From Corallococcus coralloides DSM 2259 (GTDB taxonomy: Bacteria > Myxococcota > Myxococcia > Myxococcales > Myxococcaceae): a stretch of 64,000 nt of DNA. The position numbers and the translations under genes were made by a program. Under the pieces are notes generated by a model. That model saw only the letters and a list, made by a program, of their open reading frames with translations, searched no databases and had not been told where the DNA came from. Where the stretch lies: positions 4,526,001 through 4,590,000 of the forward strand of contig NC_017030.1 in the NCBI RefSeq assembly GCF_000255295.1. Direction: 5' to 3'. This document shows, piece by piece, positions 10,696 to 20,442 of this stretch (positions within the stretch are counted from its first letter, which is position 1; every line of letters begins with the position of its first letter).

Positions 10696-11115
10696 TCAGC
10701 CCCGGAAGAGGGGACGGAACAGCGCGGACTCGCGCAGGGAGGCGGCCAGCGCGGCGATGTCGTCCGACTGGCTGTCCACCTCCTCGGCGTCGAAGGTTTC
10801 CTTCAGACGGGCCATCACCTCCGCGTGGCCTCGGGAATGGAGCAGCTCGCGGAAGCTGACGCACGAGCTGCTGGATGTGCTCGCCACGCTCCACGTTCAC
10901 GTGCCGTAGAGCCACTCCACGGGCTCCAGCGCCTTGAACGCCTGATGCGGGGCCAGCTCCCGCAGGACCTCGGCCGCGATGTCGGGAAAGGCCTCCTCGC
11001 GGTGCTGGACCTTCAGCCCCCGCTCCTGAAGGAGCCTCCCCATGTCCTGGAAGCTGCGCATGCGCTTTCCCTGCTCACCGGCGTGTCCGCGGCCCATACG
11101 GATCGAGGTGGCCAT
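10696..11115 (-). pseudogene. Hypothetical gene broken by two compensating frameshifts
   Basis: The ATG at 11115 begins a plausible protein (MATSIRMGRG, then MRSFQDMGRLLQERGLKVQH) that reads to LEPVEWLYGT and hits TGA at 10897-10899. Shifting frame just before the stop yields HVNVERGEHIQQLVRQ, which looks coding. A second shift back gives FRELLHSRGHAEVMARLKETFDAEEVD and ends at 10696. The three segments in series would make a single ~138-residue acidic helical protein. Either this is a decayed gene with a -1 and a +1 indel about 50 bp apart, or the assembly has errors here. No family recognised. Confidence 0.6.
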
Positions 11116-11188: not shown

Positions 11189-12673
11189 ATGACAACCCTC
11201 ATGACGAAGCTGTGTGTCATTGGCGGAGGCCCCACCGCGGTGGCCGCTCTCTTCGAGGCCCGGGCGCGTGGCATTCCCGCCCTGGCCCTGGAGGCCGGCG
11301 CCACCCCACTGGCCTCGCTGCATGCCCATATCGAGGGCCTCGTCTATCTGTCGCCCGCCTCGCACTGGGAGGTGGGTGGCCTGCCGCTGGACTGCCGCGA
11401 CGCGCTGGAGTGCGAGCGCGAGGACGTGCTGCGCTATTACGCCCGCGTCATCCAGATGGGGCGTCTGGACATCCGCTGCCGCCACCGCTGCGTGGGCCTG
11501 CGCCCCGACGCGGACGGGGTGACGGTGGAGGTGGAGACTCCCGAGGGCCGCCGCGAGGTGCGCGCCGAAGAGGTGCTCGTCACCTCCTGGTATGAGCGGC
11601 GGCCCCTGCCTCCGGACGCGGTGGAGCCGGGCTCGCGCGTGGAGGTTCGGGAGGGGCTGCGCTCCGCGGCGGAGGTGGCCGGCCAGCGCGTGGCGGTGCT
11701 GGGCGGCGGCATCTCCGGCTTCGAGCAGGCCGGGGCGCTGATGATGGCGGGCCAGCCGGTGACGCTGCTGATGCGCGGCGAGGCGCGGGGCCTCCACCGG
11801 TTGCCGCACTTCGCGCGCCTGGTGGAGGCGACGGGCTCGCGGCTGGTGCCAAACGCCAGCGCGGTGCGCGTCACCCGCGAAGGCGTCACGTACCACGAGG
11901 ACGGCGAGACGCGTCACCTGCCGTGCGATGTGCTGGTGGCCGCTTGCGGCGCGCGTCTGTCTCCACGGGTGCTGGAGTTGCTCACGCGCGCGGGCGTGCT
12001 GACGGAGGACGAAGCTCGCCGACTGCGGGAGTCCGTCAGCCTGGAGGAGGCGAAGCAGGCGCACCCGGACTGGACCGGAGCGGCTCTGGAGCGCCTGGCG
12101 GTGGAGTCCCGGCCGGACCTGTGGCCGCTCGTCTTCGAGGGCCGCCGCCGCGTGAGGCTCGCTGGAGGGCCCCTGCACGTGGGGGCCTCCAATGCGGGCG
12201 TGATGGTGTCCATCGCCACCGCTGTGTTCGCGGTGCGCGCGATGGCGGGCGCGCCGGTACCCGCGGGCATGGCACCGCCGCTGGCGCGGGCCCTGCTCAA
12301 CCTGGAGTCCCTCCTCCAGGTGCTGCGCGAGGACGTTCCGCCCGAACGCGTGGAGTCATTGCGTCCGCTGGCGGTGGGCTCCTGGAGCCGCGCGTGGGTG
12401 CACCCGCACCTGTTGGAGCGACCCACGGCGCAGAGCGTGGAGCGCACCACCGGCCTGGATCCGACCCGCTTCCTGCTGCCGCCCGGGCGAGGCGTCCGCG
12501 ACATGGAGCGGGAGCTGCTGGGGCTCGCGGATGGCACCACCAGCATCGGGGAGATCGCCGACGCCAACGAGCTGATGGATCCCGCGGAGCGCGCGAAGCT
12601 CGTCGCCACCTTCCGCGATCTATGGACGCGCAACGTGCTCACGTGGCTGCCTCCGCTGGACGCGGACCGCTGA
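11189..12673 (+). CDS. Lanthipeptide-cluster FAD/NAD(P) oxidoreductase with PqqD-like tail
   Basis: 494 residues. Two dinucleotide-binding motifs are visible: CVIGGGPTAVAA (residues 9-20, FAD) and VAVLGGGISGFEQAG (~169-183, NAD(P)H). The body resembles the YpdA/thioredoxin-reductase-like flavoproteins, but I see no redox CxxC. The last ~70 residues (LDPTRFLLPPG ... ELLGLADGTTSIGEIAD ... ATFRDLWTRNVLTWLPP) match the pattern of a PqqD-like peptide-recognition domain. It lies 94 bp upstream of the lanthipeptide precursor and points the same way. The inferred role is redox tailoring of the peptide, for example reduction of dehydro-residues or thiol oxidation. The PqqD-like assignment is by pattern only. 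Confidence 0.75.
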   Translation: MTTLMTKLCVIGGGPTAVAALFEARARGIPALALEAGATPLASLHAHIEGLVYLSPASHWEVGGLPLDCRDALECEREDVLRYYARVIQMGRLDIRCRHRCVGLRPDADGVTVEVETPEGRREVRAEEVLVTSWYERRPLPPDAVEPGSRVEVREGLRSAAEVAGQRVAVLGGGISGFEQAGALMMAGQPVTLLMRGEARGLHRLPHFARLVEATGSRLVPNASAVRVTREGVTYHEDGETRHLPCDVLVAACGARLSPRVLELLTRAGVLTEDEARRLRESVSLEEAKQAHPDWTGAALERLAVESRPDLWPLVFEGRRRVRLAGGPLHVGASNAGVMVSIATAVFAVRAMAGAPVPAGMAPPLARALLNLESLLQVLREDVPPERVESLRPLAVGSWSRAWVHPHLLERPTAQSVERTTGLDPTRFLLPPGRGVRDMERELLGLADGTTSIGEIADANELMDPAERAKLVATFRDLWTRNVLTWLPPLDADR

Positions 12674-12767: not shown

Positions 12768-12962
12768 ATGAAGAAGCCCACCAAGAAGCTGACGCTGTCG
12801 AAGGACACCCTGCGCTCGCTGAACGAGACCGAGCTGAAGCAGGTTGCCGGTGGCGCCCCGACCTCCGTCGTCGCCTGCACTGGCACGGATCCGACCGAGG
12901 CCACCGTCTGCTACACGAACGCGCTCTGCTCGACGGGCGAAGCCTTCGGCTGCTGCTTCTGA
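12768..12962 (+). CDS. Class I lanthipeptide precursor (LanA)
   Basis: 64 residues. The leader (1-29) carries LTLSKDTLRSLNETELKQV and ends in AGG, the pattern of Gram-negative class I leaders with a double-glycine cleavage site. The 35-residue core is APTSVVACTGTDPTEATVCY then TNALCSTGEAFGCCF. It has five Cys (core 8, 19, 25, 33, 34) and nine Ser/Thr, so up to five lanthionine-type rings are possible, and it ends in CCF. The ATG at 12768 has GAGGAA eight bases upstream. It is followed by a strong hairpin and then lanB. The adjacent LanT has an intact C39 domain that would cut after GG. Ring pattern and activity cannot be read from sequence. Confidence 0.88.
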   Translation: MKKPTKKLTLSKDTLRSLNETELKQVAGGAPTSVVACTGTDPTEATVCYTNALCSTGEAFGCCF

Positions 12963-13089: not shown

Positions 13090-16000
13090 ATGTCCCAGCT
13101 CCGCCCCCGCGCTCCCGCCGAATCCCTGATGGAACCGGCGGACTTCTTCGTCCTGCGCACTCCGCTCCTGCCCTTCGACGCAGTGGAGCACTGGAGTTCG
13201 CGGCTCACCGCGCCGCAGGCCCCGGAGTCGCTCGCGAAGGCGCTGGACGCGGATCGCGCGCTGTTGCGCACGCGGCTGCGCGCGTATGTGGAGCGGCCGG
13301 AGGTGCGCGAGGCCCTCTTCGTCGCGTCGCCCTCATTGGAAGAGGGGCTGCCGCTCTGGTTCCAGGCGCCGGACAGCGAGTATGGCCTCAAGGTGGAGCG
13401 GGCCCTGGTGCGCTACTTCCTGCGCATGGCGGGGCGCTGCACGCCCTTTGGCCTCTTCGCGTCGTGCTCCGTTGGGAAGCTGGGAGCGCGCACGCACCTG
13501 CCGGTGGCGGACGCGCGTGAATGCCAGCGCGACACGCGTCTGGACATGGACTACCTCACGCGGCTGGTGGAAGCGCTGGTGCGTCACCCGGCCCTGCGCG
13601 ACGTGCTCCGCTACCGCCCCAATGGTAGCCTGTACCGCGCGGCCGGGCGGCTTCGCTATGTGGAGACGCGGCACGCGGGCGCGGTGCGCCAGCACCACCT
13701 GTCCTCGGTGCGGCCGGATGCGTACCTGGAAGCGGTGCTGGAGTGCGCGCGCCCAGGGGCCCGGCCGGAGCAGCTGGTGCGGACGCTGGTGGCACTGGAC
13801 GCGGAGGTGGATGCCCAGGAGGCCGCCGGGTACGTGCGCACGCTCGTGGACAACGACCTGCTGGTGCCGGAGCTGGCCGTGCCCGTCACCGGGCCCGAGC
13901 CGCTCCCATACCTGGTGGCGCGGCTGCGCGCGCTGGCGCAGGAGTCAGGCCCCGGTGAGGCCGCCCAGGTCGCGCTGGAGGCGGCCACCTGCCTGGAGGA
14001 CGTCGGAGGTCAGCTGTCCATGCTGGATGCGGGGGGCCCCGGCCGGTCGAAGGAGGCCTACCTCGCCATCGCCACGCGGCTCGAGGCGCTTCCCGTGAAG
14101 GTGGAGCTCCCGCGCCTCTTCCAGGTGGATCTCTACCGTCCGGCGCCCGGGGCCACGCTGGGGCCAGAGGTGCTGGCGGAGGCGACGCGCGCGGTGGAGC
14201 TCGTCCGGCGCATGGGGCCCCAGCTGCACACCGGCAACTCGCTGCTGAGCGCGTTCTGCGAGGCCTTCACCCGCCGCTACGAGGGCCGCGAGGTGCCGCT
14301 GCTGGAGGCGTTGGACGAGGAGTCTGGCGTGGGCTTCCAGGTGTCCCACGCGCCCGCCGCGGATGGAGCGCCGCTGTTGCGCGGGCTGGCCTTTCCCGCG
14401 GCGACGGAGACCGGAGGGACGCTGGGCGCACGCGAGCTGCACCTGATGCGCCGGCTGACCGCCAGCCCGGGCGCGCGCGTGCTGACGCTGGGCGAGGAGG
14501 ACCTGAAGGCGCTGTCCTCGGAGAAGGCCGCGCCGGCGCCGGACGCCCTCTCCGTGGGCTTCAGCGTCCAGGCCGCTTCGGACGAGGCCTTCACACGCGG
14601 GGACTTCTCGCTGGTGCTGCGCGGCGCGGGGGGGCCCTCCGGCGCCAACACCCTGGGCCGCTTCTGCCATGGGGACGAGGCGCTGCGCGACGCGGTGGAG
14701 CGGCACCTGCGCGCCGAGGAGGCGCTGCGCCCGGACGCCGTCTTCGCGGAGGTGGTGCACCTGCCGGAGGGACGCATCGGCAACGTGCTGCTGCGGCCCC
14801 AGTTGCGCGGGCACGAGATTCCCTTCCTGGGGGCCTCCGGCGCGCCCGAGGCTCAGCAGCTTCCGGTGGAAGACCTGCGCGTGTCGGTGGTGGATGGGCG
14901 CGTGGTGCTGCGCTCGAAGCGGCTGGGCCGCGAGGTGCTGCCGCGGCTCACCACCGCGCACAACTTCTCCCGGGGGCTGGGCGTCTACCGCTTCCTGTGC
15001 ATGCTCCAGCACGACGGGCGCGCGGTGGGCCTGTCGTGGAACTGGGGCGCGCTGGAGGGCCTGGACTTCCTGCCGCGCGTGGTGTCCGGCCGGGTGGTGC
15101 TCTCGCTGGCGAGGTGGCGGCTGGGGCCGGACGTGCTGAAGCCGCTGGGCGCGGCGCGCGGCGAGGAGTGCTTCCGCGCCGTGCAACAGCTTCGCGAGCG
15201 GCTGGGCCTTCCGCGCCACGTGGCGCTGGTGAGTGGCGACAACGTGCTGCCGTTGGATCTGGACAACGTCCTGTGCGTGGAGACGCTCGCCTCCCTGGTG
15301 AAGGACAGCCCCCGCGCCGTGCTGCGCGAGCAGCTCGTCGGGCCGGACGCGCTGTGCGCCCACGGTCCGGAGGGGAGGTTCGTCCATGAGCTGTTCCTCC
15401 CCATGGTTCGGCGCCAGGAGCCCACGCCCTCCGTGCCGGCCCCGCGCACTGTTTCCACCGCCGGTGCCCTCCGGCACTTCGCGCCCGGCTCGGAGTGGCT
15501 CTACGCGAAGCTGTACGCGGGCACCGCTGGCGCGGATGACGTGCTGTGCGACGCGGTGGCGCCGCTGGTGGAGCGGCTCGTCCGCGAGGGCGTGGTGGAC
15601 CGCTGGTTCTTCATCCGCTTCGAGGATCCGGACCGGCACGTGCGCCTGCGGCTGCACGGGGATCCGGCCCGCCTGAACCGCGACGCGCTGCCCGCGCTGT
15701 CCGCCGCGGTGGCGCCGCTGATGAGGGACGGCGTGGTGTGGAAGGTGCAGCTCGACACGTACGAGCGGGAGCTGGAGCGCTACGGCGGTCCGGAGGGCAT
15801 GGCCCTGGCCGAGGAGCTGTTCCACGCGGACAGCGACGCGGTGCTGAAGCTGATGGCGCTGCTGGACGGCGACGCGGGCGCGGAGGCCCGATGGCAGCTC
15901 ACGCTGCGGGGCATGGACCTGCTGCTGGACGACCTGGGGCTGGACCTTCGCATGAAGCTGAATGTGGCCGAGCGCTCCCGCGACTACTTCGGGCGGGAGT

Positions 16001-16359
16001 TCCGCATGGACCCGGCCTTCACGCACCAGCTCGGTGCCCGCTACCGGCAGTCCCGCGCCGCCCTGGAGGCCGCGTGGGCTCCAGACGCGCAAGAAAGCCC
16101 GCTGCTCATCGAGGGGCTCGCCGTCCTGCGCGAGCGCTCGGAGCGGCTGGTCTCCGTGCGGCGGCGCCTGGAGGCGGCTTCCCGCGAGGGCCGGCTTGGC
16201 GTGGCCCTGCTTGCGACGGCCAGCCTCCACCTGCACATGCACGCCAACCGGATGCTGCGCTCGGCGGCGCGTGCGCAGGAGCTGGTGCTCCACGACTTCC
16301 TTGCCCGGACGTACCAGTCCCAGCTCGCGCGTGCCCGCGCGAAGGAGCCTCGCCCATGA
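13090..16359 (+). CDS. lanB: Lanthipeptide dehydratase LanB
   Basis: 1089 residues, a full-length class I (tRNA-Glu-dependent) dehydratase. The N-terminal glutamylation domain starts ADFFVLRTPLLPFD and includes RCTPFGLFASCSVG, the conserved R-x-TPFGLF segment of the family. The C-terminal elimination (SpaB_C/TbtC-like) domain starts near residue 790 with EWLYAKLY and has WFFIRFEDPDRHVRLRLHG and VQLDTYERELERYGG. It glutamylates core Ser/Thr and eliminates glutamate to give dehydroalanine and dehydrobutyrine. The ATG at 13090 lies just after the terminator; the track upstream to 13021 would start inside that hairpin. It overlaps lanC by 4 bp. Confidence 0.95.
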   Translation: MSQLRPRAPAESLMEPADFFVLRTPLLPFDAVEHWSSRLTAPQAPESLAKALDADRALLRTRLRAYVERPEVREALFVASPSLEEGLPLWFQAPDSEYGLKVERALVRYFLRMAGRCTPFGLFASCSVGKLGARTHLPVADARECQRDTRLDMDYLTRLVEALVRHPALRDVLRYRPNGSLYRAAGRLRYVETRHAGAVRQHHLSSVRPDAYLEAVLECARPGARPEQLVRTLVALDAEVDAQEAAGYVRTLVDNDLLVPELAVPVTGPEPLPYLVARLRALAQESGPGEAAQVALEAATCLEDVGGQLSMLDAGGPGRSKEAYLAIATRLEALPVKVELPRLFQVDLYRPAPGATLGPEVLAEATRAVELVRRMGPQLHTGNSLLSAFCEAFTRRYEGREVPLLEALDEESGVGFQVSHAPAADGAPLLRGLAFPAATETGGTLGARELHLMRRLTASPGARVLTLGEEDLKALSSEKAAPAPDALSVGFSVQAASDEAFTRGDFSLVLRGAGGPSGANTLGRFCHGDEALRDAVERHLRAEEALRPDAVFAEVVHLPEGRIGNVLLRPQLRGHEIPFLGASGAPEAQQLPVEDLRVSVVDGRVVLRSKRLGREVLPRLTTAHNFSRGLGVYRFLCMLQHDGRAVGLSWNWGALEGLDFLPRVVSGRVVLSLARWRLGPDVLKPLGAARGEECFRAVQQLRERLGLPRHVALVSGDNVLPLDLDNVLCVETLASLVKDSPRAVLREQLVGPDALCAHGPEGRFVHELFLPMVRRQEPTPSVPAPRTVSTAGALRHFAPGSEWLYAKLYAGTAGADDVLCDAVAPLVERLVREGVVDRWFFIRFEDPDRHVRLRLHGDPARLNRDALPALSAAVAPLMRDGVVWKVQLDTYERELERYGGPEGMALAEELFHADSDAVLKLMALLDGDAGAEARWQLTLRGMDLLLDDLGLDLRMKLNVAERSRDYFGREFRMDPAFTHQLGARYRQSRAALEAAWAPDAQESPLLIEGLAVLRERSERLVSVRRRLEAASREGRLGVALLATASLHLHMHANRMLRSAARAQELVLHDFLARTYQSQLARARAKEPRP

Positions 16360-17669
16360 TGGCCCATTCCATCCGTCCCACCCAGGAGTCCCCCCGGTGG
16401 TGGCCGCTGCTCACCGGAGCGCTGGCGGACCAGGCCGCGGAGGCGGTGCGCGCCATCACCACCGAGCTGCACAAGCCCTTCACCCACACGGGCGCGCGCA
16501 TCGCGGAGCGTTTGTCGAGCCAGGCGCTGCTGCACGGCTACCTGGCGCGCGTGTGGCCCGGGGGAGAGGATCCGGAGCACGCGGCGCGCTACCTGGACGG
16601 GGCGCTGGATGAGGTCGGGAGCCGGTGGATGCGCCCGGCGCTGCATGGCGGCTTCGTCCAGGTGGCGTGGGTGATGCACCACCTGGGCGCGCACCTGCTG
16701 CCGGATCAGCTGGGCGCGGAAGAAGACCCGCTGGAGGACGTGGAGGCGGCGCTGGAGGAGGCCCTGGGCGTCGAGCATTGGGTGCAGCACTACGATCTCA
16801 TCGCCGGGCTGGTGGGGCTGGGCGTCTTCGCGCTGGAGCGGCTGCCAGGGGCCCGGGCGCGCCGGTGCCTGGAGCGCATCGTCCACCACCTGCTGGACGT
16901 GTCGGAGCTGGGGCCTCAGGGACGGGCGTGGCGGACTCGTCCGGAGCTCATCCCCACGACCACGCGCAAGACGCGGCATGACGGCGGCTACAACCTGGGC
17001 GTGGCGCACGGCAACCCGGGTGCGGTGGGCCTGCTCGCGGCCGCGTGGGCGCATGGCATCGACCGGGCGCGGGTGGGCCCCGCGCTGGAGGAGGCGGTGC
17101 GGTGGTTGCTCGCGCAGCAGCAACCGGCGGGCTCGCTGTCCGCCTTCGCCTACTACGGGGATGACGAGGTGCGGCGCTCCCAGGTGGCGCGGGGGGCGTG
17201 GTGCTATGGGGATCCGGGCGTGGCCGCGACGCTGTTGATGGCCGCGCGGGCGGTGGGCAACGCGGAGTGGGAGCGGGTGGCCGTGGAGACGGGCCTGCGC
17301 GCGGTGCGCCGGCCCGAGGAGACGCGCGAGGTGATGGACGGCGGCCTGTGCCACGGCGAGGCGGGGCTGGCGCACCTGTTCCATCGCATGTACCGGCTGA
17401 CGGGGGAGGAGGCCTTCGGCCGCGAGGCGCGCGAGTGCTTCGCGCGGCTGCTGGCGCGGCGCGTGCCCGGCGAGGGCGTCGGTGGCTACGCGGCGTGGTT
17501 CCCCCGCGAGATCTACCCGGACCGGGTGGAGGACAACGCCAGCTTCCTGACGGGCTCGGTGGGCATCGCGCTCGCGCTGCTTGCGGCCATCAGCGACGAG
17601 GAGCCGGCGTGGGACCGGATGCTGCTCGCGTCCTTCCGCCCGCCGCTGGAGTCGGGACATGGCCGCTGA
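16356..17669 (+). CDS. lanC: Lanthionine cyclase LanC
   Basis: 437 residues with the alpha/alpha-toroid cyclase signatures: GVAHGNPG with the catalytic His at 218, WCYGDPG with zinc ligand Cys283, and GLCHGEAG with zinc ligands Cys332 and His333. All key residues are present, so the enzyme should be active. It activates Cys thiols through zinc and adds them to dehydro-residues to form (methyl)lanthionine rings. It is coupled to lanB by an ATGA overlap and to the next gene by an 11-bp overlap, so the four biosynthetic/export genes form one operon. Confidence 0.95.
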   Translation: MMAHSIRPTQESPRWWPLLTGALADQAAEAVRAITTELHKPFTHTGARIAERLSSQALLHGYLARVWPGGEDPEHAARYLDGALDEVGSRWMRPALHGGFVQVAWVMHHLGAHLLPDQLGAEEDPLEDVEAALEEALGVEHWVQHYDLIAGLVGLGVFALERLPGARARRCLERIVHHLLDVSELGPQGRAWRTRPELIPTTTRKTRHDGGYNLGVAHGNPGAVGLLAAAWAHGIDRARVGPALEEAVRWLLAQQQPAGSLSAFAYYGDDEVRRSQVARGAWCYGDPGVAATLLMAARAVGNAEWERVAVETGLRAVRRPEETREVMDGGLCHGEAGLAHLFHRMYRLTGEEAFGREARECFARLLARRVPGEGVGGYAAWFPREIYPDRVEDNASFLTGSVGIALALLAAISDEEPAWDRMLLASFRPPLESGHGR

Positions 17670-18234
17670 GGAAGGGAGCACGCCCTTCCGGCGCGAGGCC
17701 CTGGAGCGCCATGCGCGCGGAGGCGCCGCGGAGCCGGTGAGGCTTGCGCACCCGCGCTGGGTGCGCTGGCTGCCGCTTCCATTGGGGGTCGCGCTCGCGG
17801 GCCTGGGGCTCTTCGCGACGCGCGTGCCGGTGGCCCGCGTGGTGAGCGTCCCGGGGGTGGTGGAGGCGCTGTCCCAGGGCCTGCCCATGGACCCGTCGGT
17901 GGACTTGCGGCCCGAGGGCGGAGCGCCGACGCGACTGTTCTTCTCCGTGCCCGCCCGGCACCAGGGCGCGCTGCGTCCGGGGCTGCGCGTGCGCTCACGG
18001 ACGGCGCAGGGCCCGCGCGACTACGAGGTGGAGTGGGTGGACACGGAGCCACGAAGACCGGAGACGTTCAGCCGGGGACTCGGGAGCCTGGCGTCGGGCG
18101 TGCTCGTCCGGGCGCACGAGGTCTCGTCAGCGGGCGGCGACGCGCCGGGCACGCCGGGCACCGTCGAAGTGCAGGTGGGCACGGAGTCGCTGCTGGCCGC
18201 GCTGTGGGCGCAGGCTCGTGGCGGGCGGAGGTGA
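17659..18234 (+). CDS. Short membrane-fusion-like protein of the lan operon
   Basis: 191 residues. The N-terminus FRREALERHARGGAAEPVRL followed by HPRWVRWLPLPLGVALAGLG and VARVVSVPGVVE closely resembles the start of HlyD/membrane-fusion proteins that pair with C39 ABC exporters: a cytoplasmic start, one membrane helix at ~36-56 and the first strand of the barrel. The family is normally ~400 residues with a long coiled coil and lipoyl hairpin. Here these are absent and the remainder is a short beta-rich domain. The gene is intact and lies 3 bp before lanT, so it is likely a reduced adaptor for the transporter, not a remnant. Function is inferred. Confidence 0.75.
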   Translation: MAAEEGSTPFRREALERHARGGAAEPVRLAHPRWVRWLPLPLGVALAGLGLFATRVPVARVVSVPGVVEALSQGLPMDPSVDLRPEGGAPTRLFFSVPARHQGALRPGLRVRSRTAQGPRDYEVEWVDTEPRRPETFSRGLGSLASGVLVRAHEVSSAGGDAPGTPGTVEVQVGTESLLAALWAQARGGRR

Positions 18235-18237
18235 GCC

Positions 18238-20442
18238 ATGGGGGCGTTGCGTGAGCTGAGGCGTCGGTGGCGCCGGGTGCCGTTCCGTCAGCAGTTCACC
18301 TCGGCGGACTGTGGCCCCACGTGCCTGGCCATGGTGCTCGCGTACCATGGCGCCCCGGCGCGGCCGGCGGAGGTGCGCGGGGTGGTGGGGGCAGGGCGCG
18401 GTGGCGCGCACGCGCTGGCGCTGGTGGAGGCGGCGCGGCGCTTCGGCCTGGACGCGCGCGGGGTGAGCCTGGGCATGGACGACCTGCCCGTGCTGGAGCG
18501 CGGCTCCATCCTCCACTGGGAGTTCAACCACTACGTCGTCTTCGACGGGCTGTGGCGGGGTGGGGTGGCCGTGGTGGACCCGGCGCTGGGGCGGCGGCGG
18601 CTGTCCTGGGATGAGTTCCGCGACGCCTTCACCGGCGTGGCGCTGCTGTTCGAGCCCACGTCCGCGCTCCAGAAAGGCCACACGCGGCCGGCCCTGCTGC
18701 GCCGCCTGCCAGCGCTGCTGCGCGGGCACACGGGCAACTGGGCGCGCATCTTCGCGGTGTCACTGGTGCTGCAGGTGCTGTCCCTGGTGCTGCCCTTCCT
18801 CACGGGCATGGCGGTGGACCGGGTGGTGCCATGGCAGGACACGGGCCTGCTGGCGGCGCTGGGGGTGGGCGTGGGGCTGGTGCTGGTGTGCCACGTCCTG
18901 GCCACGTCGCTGCGCTCGGCCCTGCTGGTGCGGCTGCGCATGGAGCTGGACGTGGGCATGGCGGGCCAACTGGTGCGGCACCTGTTGTCGCTGCCGTATG
19001 CCTTCCTCCAGCAGCGCTCGTCGGGCGACCTGATGATGCGCATCAACAGCCTGGCCATCATCCGCGAGGCGCTGGGCGCGGCCACGCTGGCGGTGATGCT
19101 GGACGGGCTGCTCATCCTCTCCTCGGTGGGGATGCTGGCGGGCCTGAGCCGGCCGCTGCTCCTGGCGGTGGGGGCCGTGGCGGCGGCGCAGGTGCTGGTG
19201 CTGCTCTTGACGCGGCGGAGGCGCGAGGAGCTGCTGGCCAGCGAGATGCACGCGCAGGCGAAGTCCCAGGATTTCACGGTGGAGATGCTGTCCGGCCTGG
19301 AGGTGCTGAAGTCCTCCGGCTCGCAGGGACAGTCGGTGGGGCACTGGGAGGAGCTCTACACGCGGCAGCTCAATGCCTCCTCGCGCAAGCGCTACTACCA
19401 GGGCGTGGTGGACGCGCTGGCGGCGGGGCTCCAGGTGGGCGCGCCCTCGGTGTTGCTGGGCACGGGGTTGTGGCAGGTGCTGCGCGGCGAGCTGACGCTG
19501 GGGACGATGCTGACGGCGCACGCGCTGGCGCTGGGCGCGCTGGCCCCGCTGGCTTCCCTGGTCGCGGTGGGTGGGCAGTTGCAGCTCGCTGGCGGCTACA
19601 TGGAGCGCATCGACGACCTGCTGGAGACGCCGCCGGAGCAGGACGCGCGAAAGGTGCGGCCCGCGCCGAAGCTGGCGGGTGGCATCACGGTGGAGGGCGT
19701 CCGCTTCCGCTACGACGCGCTGGAGTCACCGTCCCTGCAGGACGTGTCGCTGAGAATCGCCCCGGGGCAGTGGGCGGCCATCGTCGGTCCCTCTGGAGGT
19801 GGCAAGTCCACGCTGGCGCGCGTGCTGCTGGGGCTGTACCGGCCGGAGGCGGGGCGGGTGCTCTTCGACGGGATGGACCTGACGGAGCTGGAGAGCGACT
19901 CGGTGCGCCAGCAGCTGGGCATCGTGGTGCAGGAGACGCGGCTGTTCAACGCGTCGGTGCGCAGCAACATCGCCTTCGCGGATCCATCCATCCCGCTGGC
20001 GGCCGTGGTGGACGCGGCGACGCGCGCGGGCATCCACGAGGACATCCTCGCGCTGCCGCTGGGCTATGACACGCCCCTGGGAGACCAGGGGGCCAGTCTG
20101 TCCGGAGGGCAGCGGCAGCGGTTGGCCCTGGCGCGAGCGCTGGTGCGTCGGCCCTCGGTGCTGCTCCTGGACGAGGCGACGAGCGCGCTGGACGCCGTCA
20201 CCGAGCGTCGCGTGCAGCAGGCGCTGCAATCCCTCTCCTGCACCCGCGTCACCATCGCCCACCGGCTGAGCACCGTGGTTGGCGCGGACATCCTCTTCGT
20301 CATGGAGAAGGGCCGCATCGTGGAGCAGGGCACGCACGCGGAGCTGCTCGCGCGAGGCGGGGCCTACGCGCGGCTCGTGCAGGCCCAGCTCGAAATGCCC
20401 TCACGCCCCGAGCTGACGAGGGTGCGCGCTCAAGGCGCGTAG
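18238..20442 (+). CDS. lanT: Lanthipeptide exporter/leader peptidase LanT (C39 ABC)
   Basis: 734 residues, the usual length for peptidase-containing ABC transporters. The N-terminal C39 domain has the catalytic SADCGPTC (Cys25), HWEFNHYVVF (His98) and VDPALG (Asp ~114). Transmembrane helices occupy ~160-440. The ATPase has Walker A GPSGGGKST (~517), LSGGQRQRLALARAL signature, VLLLDEATSALD Walker B and the AHRLST switch. It should cleave the leader after the double glycine and export the modified core. It starts 3 bp after the fusion-like gene. Its last 13 bp overlap the convergent kelch gene. Confidence 0.95.
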   Translation: MGALRELRRRWRRVPFRQQFTSADCGPTCLAMVLAYHGAPARPAEVRGVVGAGRGGAHALALVEAARRFGLDARGVSLGMDDLPVLERGSILHWEFNHYVVFDGLWRGGVAVVDPALGRRRLSWDEFRDAFTGVALLFEPTSALQKGHTRPALLRRLPALLRGHTGNWARIFAVSLVLQVLSLVLPFLTGMAVDRVVPWQDTGLLAALGVGVGLVLVCHVLATSLRSALLVRLRMELDVGMAGQLVRHLLSLPYAFLQQRSSGDLMMRINSLAIIREALGAATLAVMLDGLLILSSVGMLAGLSRPLLLAVGAVAAAQVLVLLLTRRRREELLASEMHAQAKSQDFTVEMLSGLEVLKSSGSQGQSVGHWEELYTRQLNASSRKRYYQGVVDALAAGLQVGAPSVLLGTGLWQVLRGELTLGTMLTAHALALGALAPLASLVAVGGQLQLAGGYMERIDDLLETPPEQDARKVRPAPKLAGGITVEGVRFRYDALESPSLQDVSLRIAPGQWAAIVGPSGGGKSTLARVLLGLYRPEAGRVLFDGMDLTELESDSVRQQLGIVVQETRLFNASVRSNIAFADPSIPLAAVVDAATRAGIHEDILALPLGYDTPLGDQGASLSGGQRQRLALARALVRRPSVLLLDEATSALDAVTERRVQQALQSLSCTRVTIAHRLSTVVGADILFVMEKGRIVEQGTHAELLARGGAYARLVQAQLEMPSRPELTRVRAQGA

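Follow-up and report, generated by a model that had tools for sequence, protein, structure and literature searches.

A YpdA/thioredoxin reductase-type flavoprotein with a PqqD-like tail linked to a class I lanthipeptide cluster in Corallococcus coralloides

GliT and HlmI are flavin-dependent dithiol oxidases of the thioredoxin reductase (TrxR)-like fold that act on natural-product thiols and carry a CxxC motif in the NADPH domain. In glutathione-reductase-type enzymes, a redox pair CxxxxC begins the helix that corresponds to residues 77 to 91 of the protein studied here, flavin monooxygenases (FMOs) are marked by the fingerprint FxGxxxH, and LanJC is a further type of lanthipeptide reductase besides LanJA and LanJB. 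In YpdA (Bdr), the bacillithiol disulfide reductase, the active-site residue Cys14 in the motif GGGPCG is catalytic (PMC6591457). Among the enzyme families that tailor the products of lanthipeptide clusters, PMC7268733 names flavoproteins, FMN reductases, and zinc dehydrogenases; it describes LanJA enzymes as zinc dehydrogenases and LanJB enzymes as FMN reductases, and it mentions FAD-dependent oxidoreductases without a known role in class IV clusters. The protein analyzed here belongs to a small oxidoreductase family that combines a YpdA/TrxR-type core with a PqqD-like tail and is apparently undescribed as judged from the open-licence PMC literature, in which we recognized no protein of this architecture in lanthipeptide clusters.

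We analyzed a stretch of 64,000 nucleotides, hereafter the window, which covers positions 4526001-4590000 of the 10.08 Mb one-contig genome of Corallococcus coralloides DSM 2259. A preliminary description had noticed a gene with two Rossmann motifs and a C-terminal PqqD-like module upstream of lanA, and this proved right in substance: the product carries the motifs GGGPTA and GGGISG, its tail is PqqD-like by profile-profile comparison, and lanA starts 94 bp downstream, followed by lanB, lanC, the gene of a small protein, and a C39-ABC exporter gene (Table 1). The matches to NF038153, PF04738, PF14028, PF05147, and PF03412 were all above their cut-offs, and the cluster is thus an intact class I lanthipeptide cluster. 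GC3 was 0.90 for the flavoprotein gene and 0.91 to 0.94 for four other genes of the window. Scans for promoters and terminators were negative.

Table 1. The flavoprotein gene, its parts, and the surrounding genes (positions in the window)
Feature	Position	Strand	Basis or remark
Flavoprotein gene, FAD/NADPH-type, with C-terminal PqqD-like tail, 494 aa	11189..12673	+	ATG start; cofactors inferred from motifs and fold
First dinucleotide motif GGGPTA, residues 12-17	11222..11239	+	Sequence; Thr16 at the position of YpdA catalytic Cys14 (family alignment)
Second dinucleotide motif GGGISG, residues 172-177, NAD(P)H domain	11702..11719	+	Sequence
Cys69-x5-Cys75	11393..11413	+	Two residues ahead of helix 77-91; putative redox role
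PqqD-like tail, residues 425-494	12461..12670	+	Predicted helices 438-446, 453-459, 465-480; strand 484-487
lanA, 64 aa precursor, double-glycine leader; core with 5 Cys and 9 Ser/Thr	12768..12962	+	NF038153, 38.6 bits vs cut-off 22
lanB, full-length dehydratase	13090..16359	+	PF04738, 600.7 bits; PF14028, 232 bits
lanC, cyclase	16356..17669	+	PF05147, 117 bits
191 aa protein, kept in the cluster; a single hydrophobic segment (putative membrane segment) seen by eye	17659..18234	+	No Pfam match
C39-peptidase ABC exporter, LanT type	18238..20442	+	PF03412, PF00664, PF00005; TIGR03796, 597.6 bits, under cut-off
Remnant, 3' part of 411 aa LanB-linked "cupin-like" gene	10696..10887	-	Comparison with relatives
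Remnant, 5' part of the same "cupin-like" gene	10897..11115	-	Comparison with relatives

The core of the window LanA ends in CCF and holds more Ser/Thr per Cys than the LanA cores of two Corallococcus relatives, where 5 Cys are accompanied by no more than 6 and 7 Ser/Thr, respectively. The leader is nearly constant, 3 of 29 positions varying among the three Corallococcus genomes. The window core is without two Tyr, two Asp, and two Gln that are retained in both relatives (L041:10248-10442 and L042:11113-11307), and its dN/dS against the first of these was 1.6, calculated on few sites.

A broken gene lies divergent to the flavoprotein gene. It is intact in the two relatives (L041:7307-8542, minus strand; L042:13013-14248, plus strand), where it encodes 411 residues, and compared to L041 the window copy has suffered internal losses of about 742 and 127 bp. 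The 411-residue protein had no match in Pfam or NCBIfam, "cupin-like" being a label given by eye. Besides L041 and L042, the family occurs in LanB stretches of other myxobacteria, namely L044, L050, L125, and, twice each, L053, L126, and L127 (L160 and L188 are repeats of L050 and L053). The C-terminal 90 residues are PqqD-like, with an hhalign score of 31.0; 199 of 200 shuffles reached at most 18.7, and one gave a 10-column artefact at 130. On these comparisons, the cupin-like proteins are a candidate new lanthipeptide-linked family. Since the Tyr, Asp, and Gln residues were lost from LanA in the one of three genomes with the broken gene, they may be targets of the cupin-like protein.

The same genome harbors a second class I cluster (L043), with LanB, LanA, a luciferase-like LanO, LanC, and a C39-type ABC protein. 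It is probably the cluster described for Corallococcus coralloides in PMC3951391; in the sections of that paper that concern this species, we found no mention of the window's cluster. LanO resembles the flavoprotein in being a flavin-type enzyme of a class I cluster, but this luciferase-like monooxygenase belongs to PF00296 and is unrelated.

The preliminary description had called the protein a YpdA/TrxR-like flavoprotein, and our analysis agrees. Pyr_redox_2 matched residues 7 to 272 (E 5e-13) and Pyr_redox_3 matched with an E value of 1e-12. An AF2 model calculated from an 18-sequence alignment (the 7 family members described below and 11 YpdA-like proteins) reached a pLDDT of 83.4 and a pTM of 0.84. 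Structural searches, including Foldseek, were queried with residues 1 to 372 only, so that the tail was outside the query. The nearest solved structures were those of YpdA, 7a76 and 7a7b, and residues 3 to 355 of the model aligned with Bacillus cereus YpdA (7a76_A) over 315 residues at 2.9 A with a Z score of 28.8. The model thus points to the YpdA/thioredoxin reductase fold class for residues 1 to 360, and both motifs and predicted fold suggest the use of FAD and NADPH.

The core resembles a YpdA/TrxR-type flavoprotein, yet it falls short of the criteria by which the named enzymes are defined. It shares the two-domain FAD/NADPH fold with YpdA, but the family has an insertion at about residues 290 to 320 and a C-terminal extension of about 130 residues. 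The top NCBIfam model was that of YpdA (TIGR04018), at 64 bits, far below the cut-off of 339.9, and the position of the catalytic Cys14 is occupied by Thr in all seven family members, which rules out a YpdA orthologue. Likewise, a low-Mr thioredoxin reductase is ruled out, as no CxxC is present anywhere in the flavoprotein; GliT and HlmI, which have the TrxR-like fold in common with it, differ by their CxxC in the NADPH domain. No zinc dehydrogenase or FMN reductase domain, as in LanJA and LanJB, was matched by Pfam in the flavoprotein. As the preliminary description stated, known lanthipeptide reductases belong to different families, and these are unrelated according to PMC7268733. As a likeness to LanJA, LanJB, and LanJC, the flavoprotein would also be an NAD(P)H-dependent enzyme of a lanthipeptide cluster.

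Full-length flavoproteins were found in 3 of 195 Myxococcota genomes, all of them Corallococcus (3 of the 16 within the genus); two further Myxococcota genomes were over the threshold, but there the query matched only parts of other long proteins. The three carriers are exactly the three Corallococcus genomes with a window-type LanB (more than 90% identical or the same, the next LanB being at about 53%), and the order flavoprotein-lanA-lanB-lanC-small protein-ABC is the same in all three copies. LanB (PF04738) is encoded at 81 places, spread over 53 of the 195 genomes; we examined 74 of these (73 stretches with the window, leaving out G133:C526, G134, G137, G146, G148, G149, and G150), and the flavoprotein is present at 3.

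A contig scan of genomes with the flavoprotein as query returned no homologue. The LanB-guided scan, with one genome per species, yielded 67 loci that span several phyla and include many of the same myxobacterial clusters again; phyla were taken from database records, at least one of which appears to be wrong. This is the entry "Comamonas sp. KCTC 72670" (L149), whose LanB region equals that of G138:C2 in the window's family and which is probably a mislabelled myxobacterium. One locus from the LanB query (L175), in a Gemmatimonadota metagenome bin, encodes a full-length homologue including the tail (about 40% identity, 350 bits). Its gene stands in a run with methyltransferase, HlyD, and ABC genes and adjoins LanB (PF04738, 511 bits), and nearby are LanC (162.8 bits), the gene of a C39-peptidase ABC protein, and a candidate 109-residue precursor with 13 Cys and 17 Ser/Thr, for which NCBIfam gave no match. 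A second copy in the same bin (L231/L239; G195:C278, 27.9 kb; 37% identity) has a pair of LanC-like genes and an ABC transporter gene in its vicinity, and LanB had no match on the whole contig; judged by its gene content, this cluster may do without LanB or make use of the one at L175. The Gemmatimonadota LanC-like proteins (L175:14074-16059 and L231:2603-4744) have an unannotated C-terminal extension of about 200 to 280 residues without a Pfam match, which is not clearly PqqD-like (score 19.2, probability 2.2).

Genome searches, which score few candidates per genome (e.g., 4 to 8), found the full-length family in 1 of 298 Gemmatimonadota genomes, where two more over the threshold were YpdA-like proteins without the tail, and in 2 of 346 Actinomycetota genomes, the same two being the only ones among 24 within their class. 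The family was not found in Acidobacteriota (0/297), Bacteroidota (0/238), or Bacillota (0/239), absences that are soft given the few candidates scored, and plasmid searches gave one partial match each in Rhodococcus and Persicobacter. The two actinobacterial homologues are 38% identical to the window protein and have the same tail, including the motifs ADG and LTWLPP. Both adjoin a NuoF-like gene in a shared context, and no LanB or LanC was found in the stretches fetched, a single 17-residue LanC match in L236 being taken as chance. The family therefore counts only seven members, of which three are near-identical, two come from one metagenome bin (binning as deposited), and two are actinobacterial. 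As the same architecture occurs in three phyla, a chance fusion of core and tail is ruled out. Linkage of the flavoprotein to lanthipeptide clusters is observed in two phyla: the gene was kept with the lan cluster in all three Corallococcus genomes with this LanB type and has LanB/LanC neighbors in the Gemmatimonadota bin, which bears out the expectation of the preliminary description that it belongs to the cluster.

We compared the LanB/LanC-linked proteins with the others. Cys9, Tyr53, His59, Cys75, Cys101, Arg308, and Trp312 are present in all five LanB/LanC-linked proteins and in neither actinobacterial one, and the first five of these residues occur in none of 11 YpdA-like outgroups. Cys69 is found in six of the seven members, so that the pair Cys69/Cys75 is complete in 5/5 linked proteins and in 0/2 others; this pair, Cys69-x5-Cys75, may be likened to the CxxxxC pair of glutathione-reductase-type enzymes. 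All seven proteins with the tail grouped together in the tree (100/100), and within this group the three Corallococcus proteins joined the actinobacterial pair (100/99) and not the Gemmatimonadota copies. A single clade of the five linked proteins, a group defined only once the tree was known, was rejected (p-AU 0.018), and shared ancestry alone is therefore a poor account of their common residues. These residues may either have been lost in Actinomycetota from an old lanthipeptide enzyme or have arisen twice. Among the three Corallococcus genomes, dN/dS was 0.18 to 0.29 for the flavoprotein, 0.21 to 0.28 for LanB, and 0.20 to 0.28 for LanC, indicating purifying selection.

The tail was not matched by the Pfam PqqD model PF05402 (gathering score 23.4), either in the whole flavoprotein at E<=1 or as a 70-residue segment at E<=10, and the flavoprotein was absent from the PF05402 matches listed for the source genome. 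The profile of the seven family tails aligned by hhalign with that of 17 PqqD sequences (from 30 PqqD loci returned) with a probability of 89.5 and a score of 35.1 over 48 columns, whereas 300 column shuffles averaged 9.1 and reached 16.2 at most. Ten 80-residue windows of the flavoprotein starting at residues 1 to 361 scored at most 14.7, and the tail-holding window from residue 401 scored 32.7. As single sequences, the tails reached 20.1 to 29.5, and six of the seven exceeded the best of 400 random windows of other proteins (mean, 9.8; maximum, 21.0). A three-sequence profile of the tail had no match among PDB sequences at E<=10. The AF2 model shows three helices and one strand at residues 438 to 487 (pLDDT 82 to 92); at residues 425 to 433, the site expected for the PqqD beta-hairpin, pLDDT was below 50 and no hairpin was predicted. 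The tail thus has the helices and an L-x-DG-x-x-S/T-x-x-I-like pattern in common with PqqD and PqqD-like RiPP recognition elements (DG in five of seven tails), but differs from them in the missing PF05402 match and hairpin, in being fused to a flavoprotein, and in occurring outside RiPP clusters too. As noted in the preliminary description, it is probably PqqD-like, and both the profile comparison and the model suggest a winged helix. Of the two findings that would have spoken against that description, a tail without the PqqD winged helix and a gene not kept with the lan cluster in relatives, neither was clearly seen.

Whether the tail also binds the LanA leader as a true RiPP recognition element is a separate matter from the chemistry of the core, and we regard this as possible rather than probable. 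In the same kind of test, the tail scored higher against PqqD than did the region of LanB expected to hold the recognition element (22 to 23), and the LanB-linked cupin-like protein likewise has a PqqD-like C-terminal end (31.0). However, in a PqqD-profile HMM search of 908 called proteins plus the family, split LanBs, several unrelated proteins, and some cupin-like proteins came ahead of the tails, whose rank was low (best E 0.2). Since the actinobacterial tails weakly match HTH_47 in Pfam (E about 0.015, below the cut-off), the tail could also be a generic winged helix. The hairpin is missing from the prediction, and the tail evolves faster than the core (dN/dS 0.35 to 0.50 versus 0.16 to 0.27 in the three Corallococcus genomes), although the leader hardly changes. 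Moreover, because the actinobacterial homologues without LanB/LanC carry the same tail, the tail is a constitutive part of the family as it is known from these sequences and not a mark of lanthipeptide work. Leader recognition is therefore unproven, and the claim that the enzyme has its own leader-recognition domain found no support in this form.

We infer that the flavoprotein most likely acts on the LanA peptide in Corallococcus, and it probably represents a new enzyme for peptide modification or thiol handling. The new tailoring route suggested in the preliminary description is a proposal at this stage. As to the chemistry, we tentatively favor a reading that falls somewhat short of probable, namely, that it is an FAD/NADPH oxidoreductase whose flavin-coupled dithiol acts on the Cys-rich LanA, with the tail as a docking module. 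NADPH, the cofactor suggested by the motifs, would reduce FAD, and in the LanB/LanC-linked proteins the flavin would exchange electrons with Cys69/Cys75 ahead of the FAD-domain helix 77-91. This dithiol would then reduce, or in the reverse direction form, disulfides in the precursor, so that its cysteines would be free for cyclization by LanC or paired at the C-terminal CC, and the tail would offer the peptide or LanB/LanC a surface to dock on. Such a role would suit the Cys-rich precursors, with 5 Cys in the window and 13 in the L175 candidate, although the latter is a protein without an NCBIfam match. The second Gemmatimonadota contig has two LanC-like genes and no LanB and therefore fits thiol chemistry better than the reduction of dehydro residues; however, that cluster could use the LanB of L175. 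Two homologues stand outside lanthipeptide clusters as far as their surroundings were seen, which also argues against the dithiol mechanism.

The main rival is that the flavoprotein would do the work of a LanJ with a new fold, its flavin delivering hydride to LanB-made dehydroalanine or dehydrobutyrine to give D-Ala or D-Abu. We consider this unlikely, even if it explains the linkage in the window just as well as the dithiol mechanism does: an NAD(P)H-flavin-type enzyme is encoded in one gene run with LanB, the Ser/Thr surplus (9 for 5 Cys in the window core, 17 for 13 in the L175 candidate) could leave dehydro residues unreacted, and the reductases treated in the passages of PMC7268733 cited above already come from unrelated families. 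Against it speak the smaller Ser/Thr numbers in the two Corallococcus relatives, the L231 contig without a LanB match, and the actinobacterial members without LanB in the stretches seen. Alternatively, the flavoprotein could be a redox enzyme that does not act on LanA at all, a reductase of low-molecular-weight disulfides or of an electron carrier that has been carried along, with a merely structural tail. The NuoF-like neighbor in Actinomycetota, the presence of the tail throughout the family, and the rarity of the flavoprotein at Myxococcota LanB places would agree with this, but its repeated linkage to LanB/LanC in two phyla, with residues tied to that linkage, makes it improbable. Finally, a flavin monooxygenase that S-oxidizes the thioethers or hydroxylates the peptide is very improbable, since the weak NCBIfam score of an ArsO FMO model and the rank of Stenotrophomonas FMOs as the next structural neighbors after YpdA (Z 24.2 and 23.9) are set against the absence of FxGxxxH from the sequence, NCBIfam FMO scores far under the cut-off, and Z scores 4 to 5 lower than that of YpdA.

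In its widest form, the dithiol reading would describe a new enzyme type: a YpdA-fold flavoprotein that would use the Cys69/Cys75 dithiol and a PqqD-like leader holder to set the redox state of precursor cysteines, or of dehydro residues, in step with LanB/LanC, and that would have been recruited at least twice or be an old lanthipeptide enzyme re-used in Actinomycetota. As a whole, we find this picture rather unlikely to hold.

What stereochemistry a lanthipeptide has and how stable it is depend on secondary redox enzymes, and the reductases found so far come from unrelated families. A PqqD-like tail alone is no proof of leader recognition, since homologues outside lanthipeptide clusters have it as well. 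If the proposal is true, a flavoprotein that has its own PqqD-like domain would provide peptide engineering with a self-targeting redox tool. Its recurrence in another phylum gives a sequence handle, made up of the core, the tail, and the LanB/LanC-linked residues, with which more members of the family can be found.
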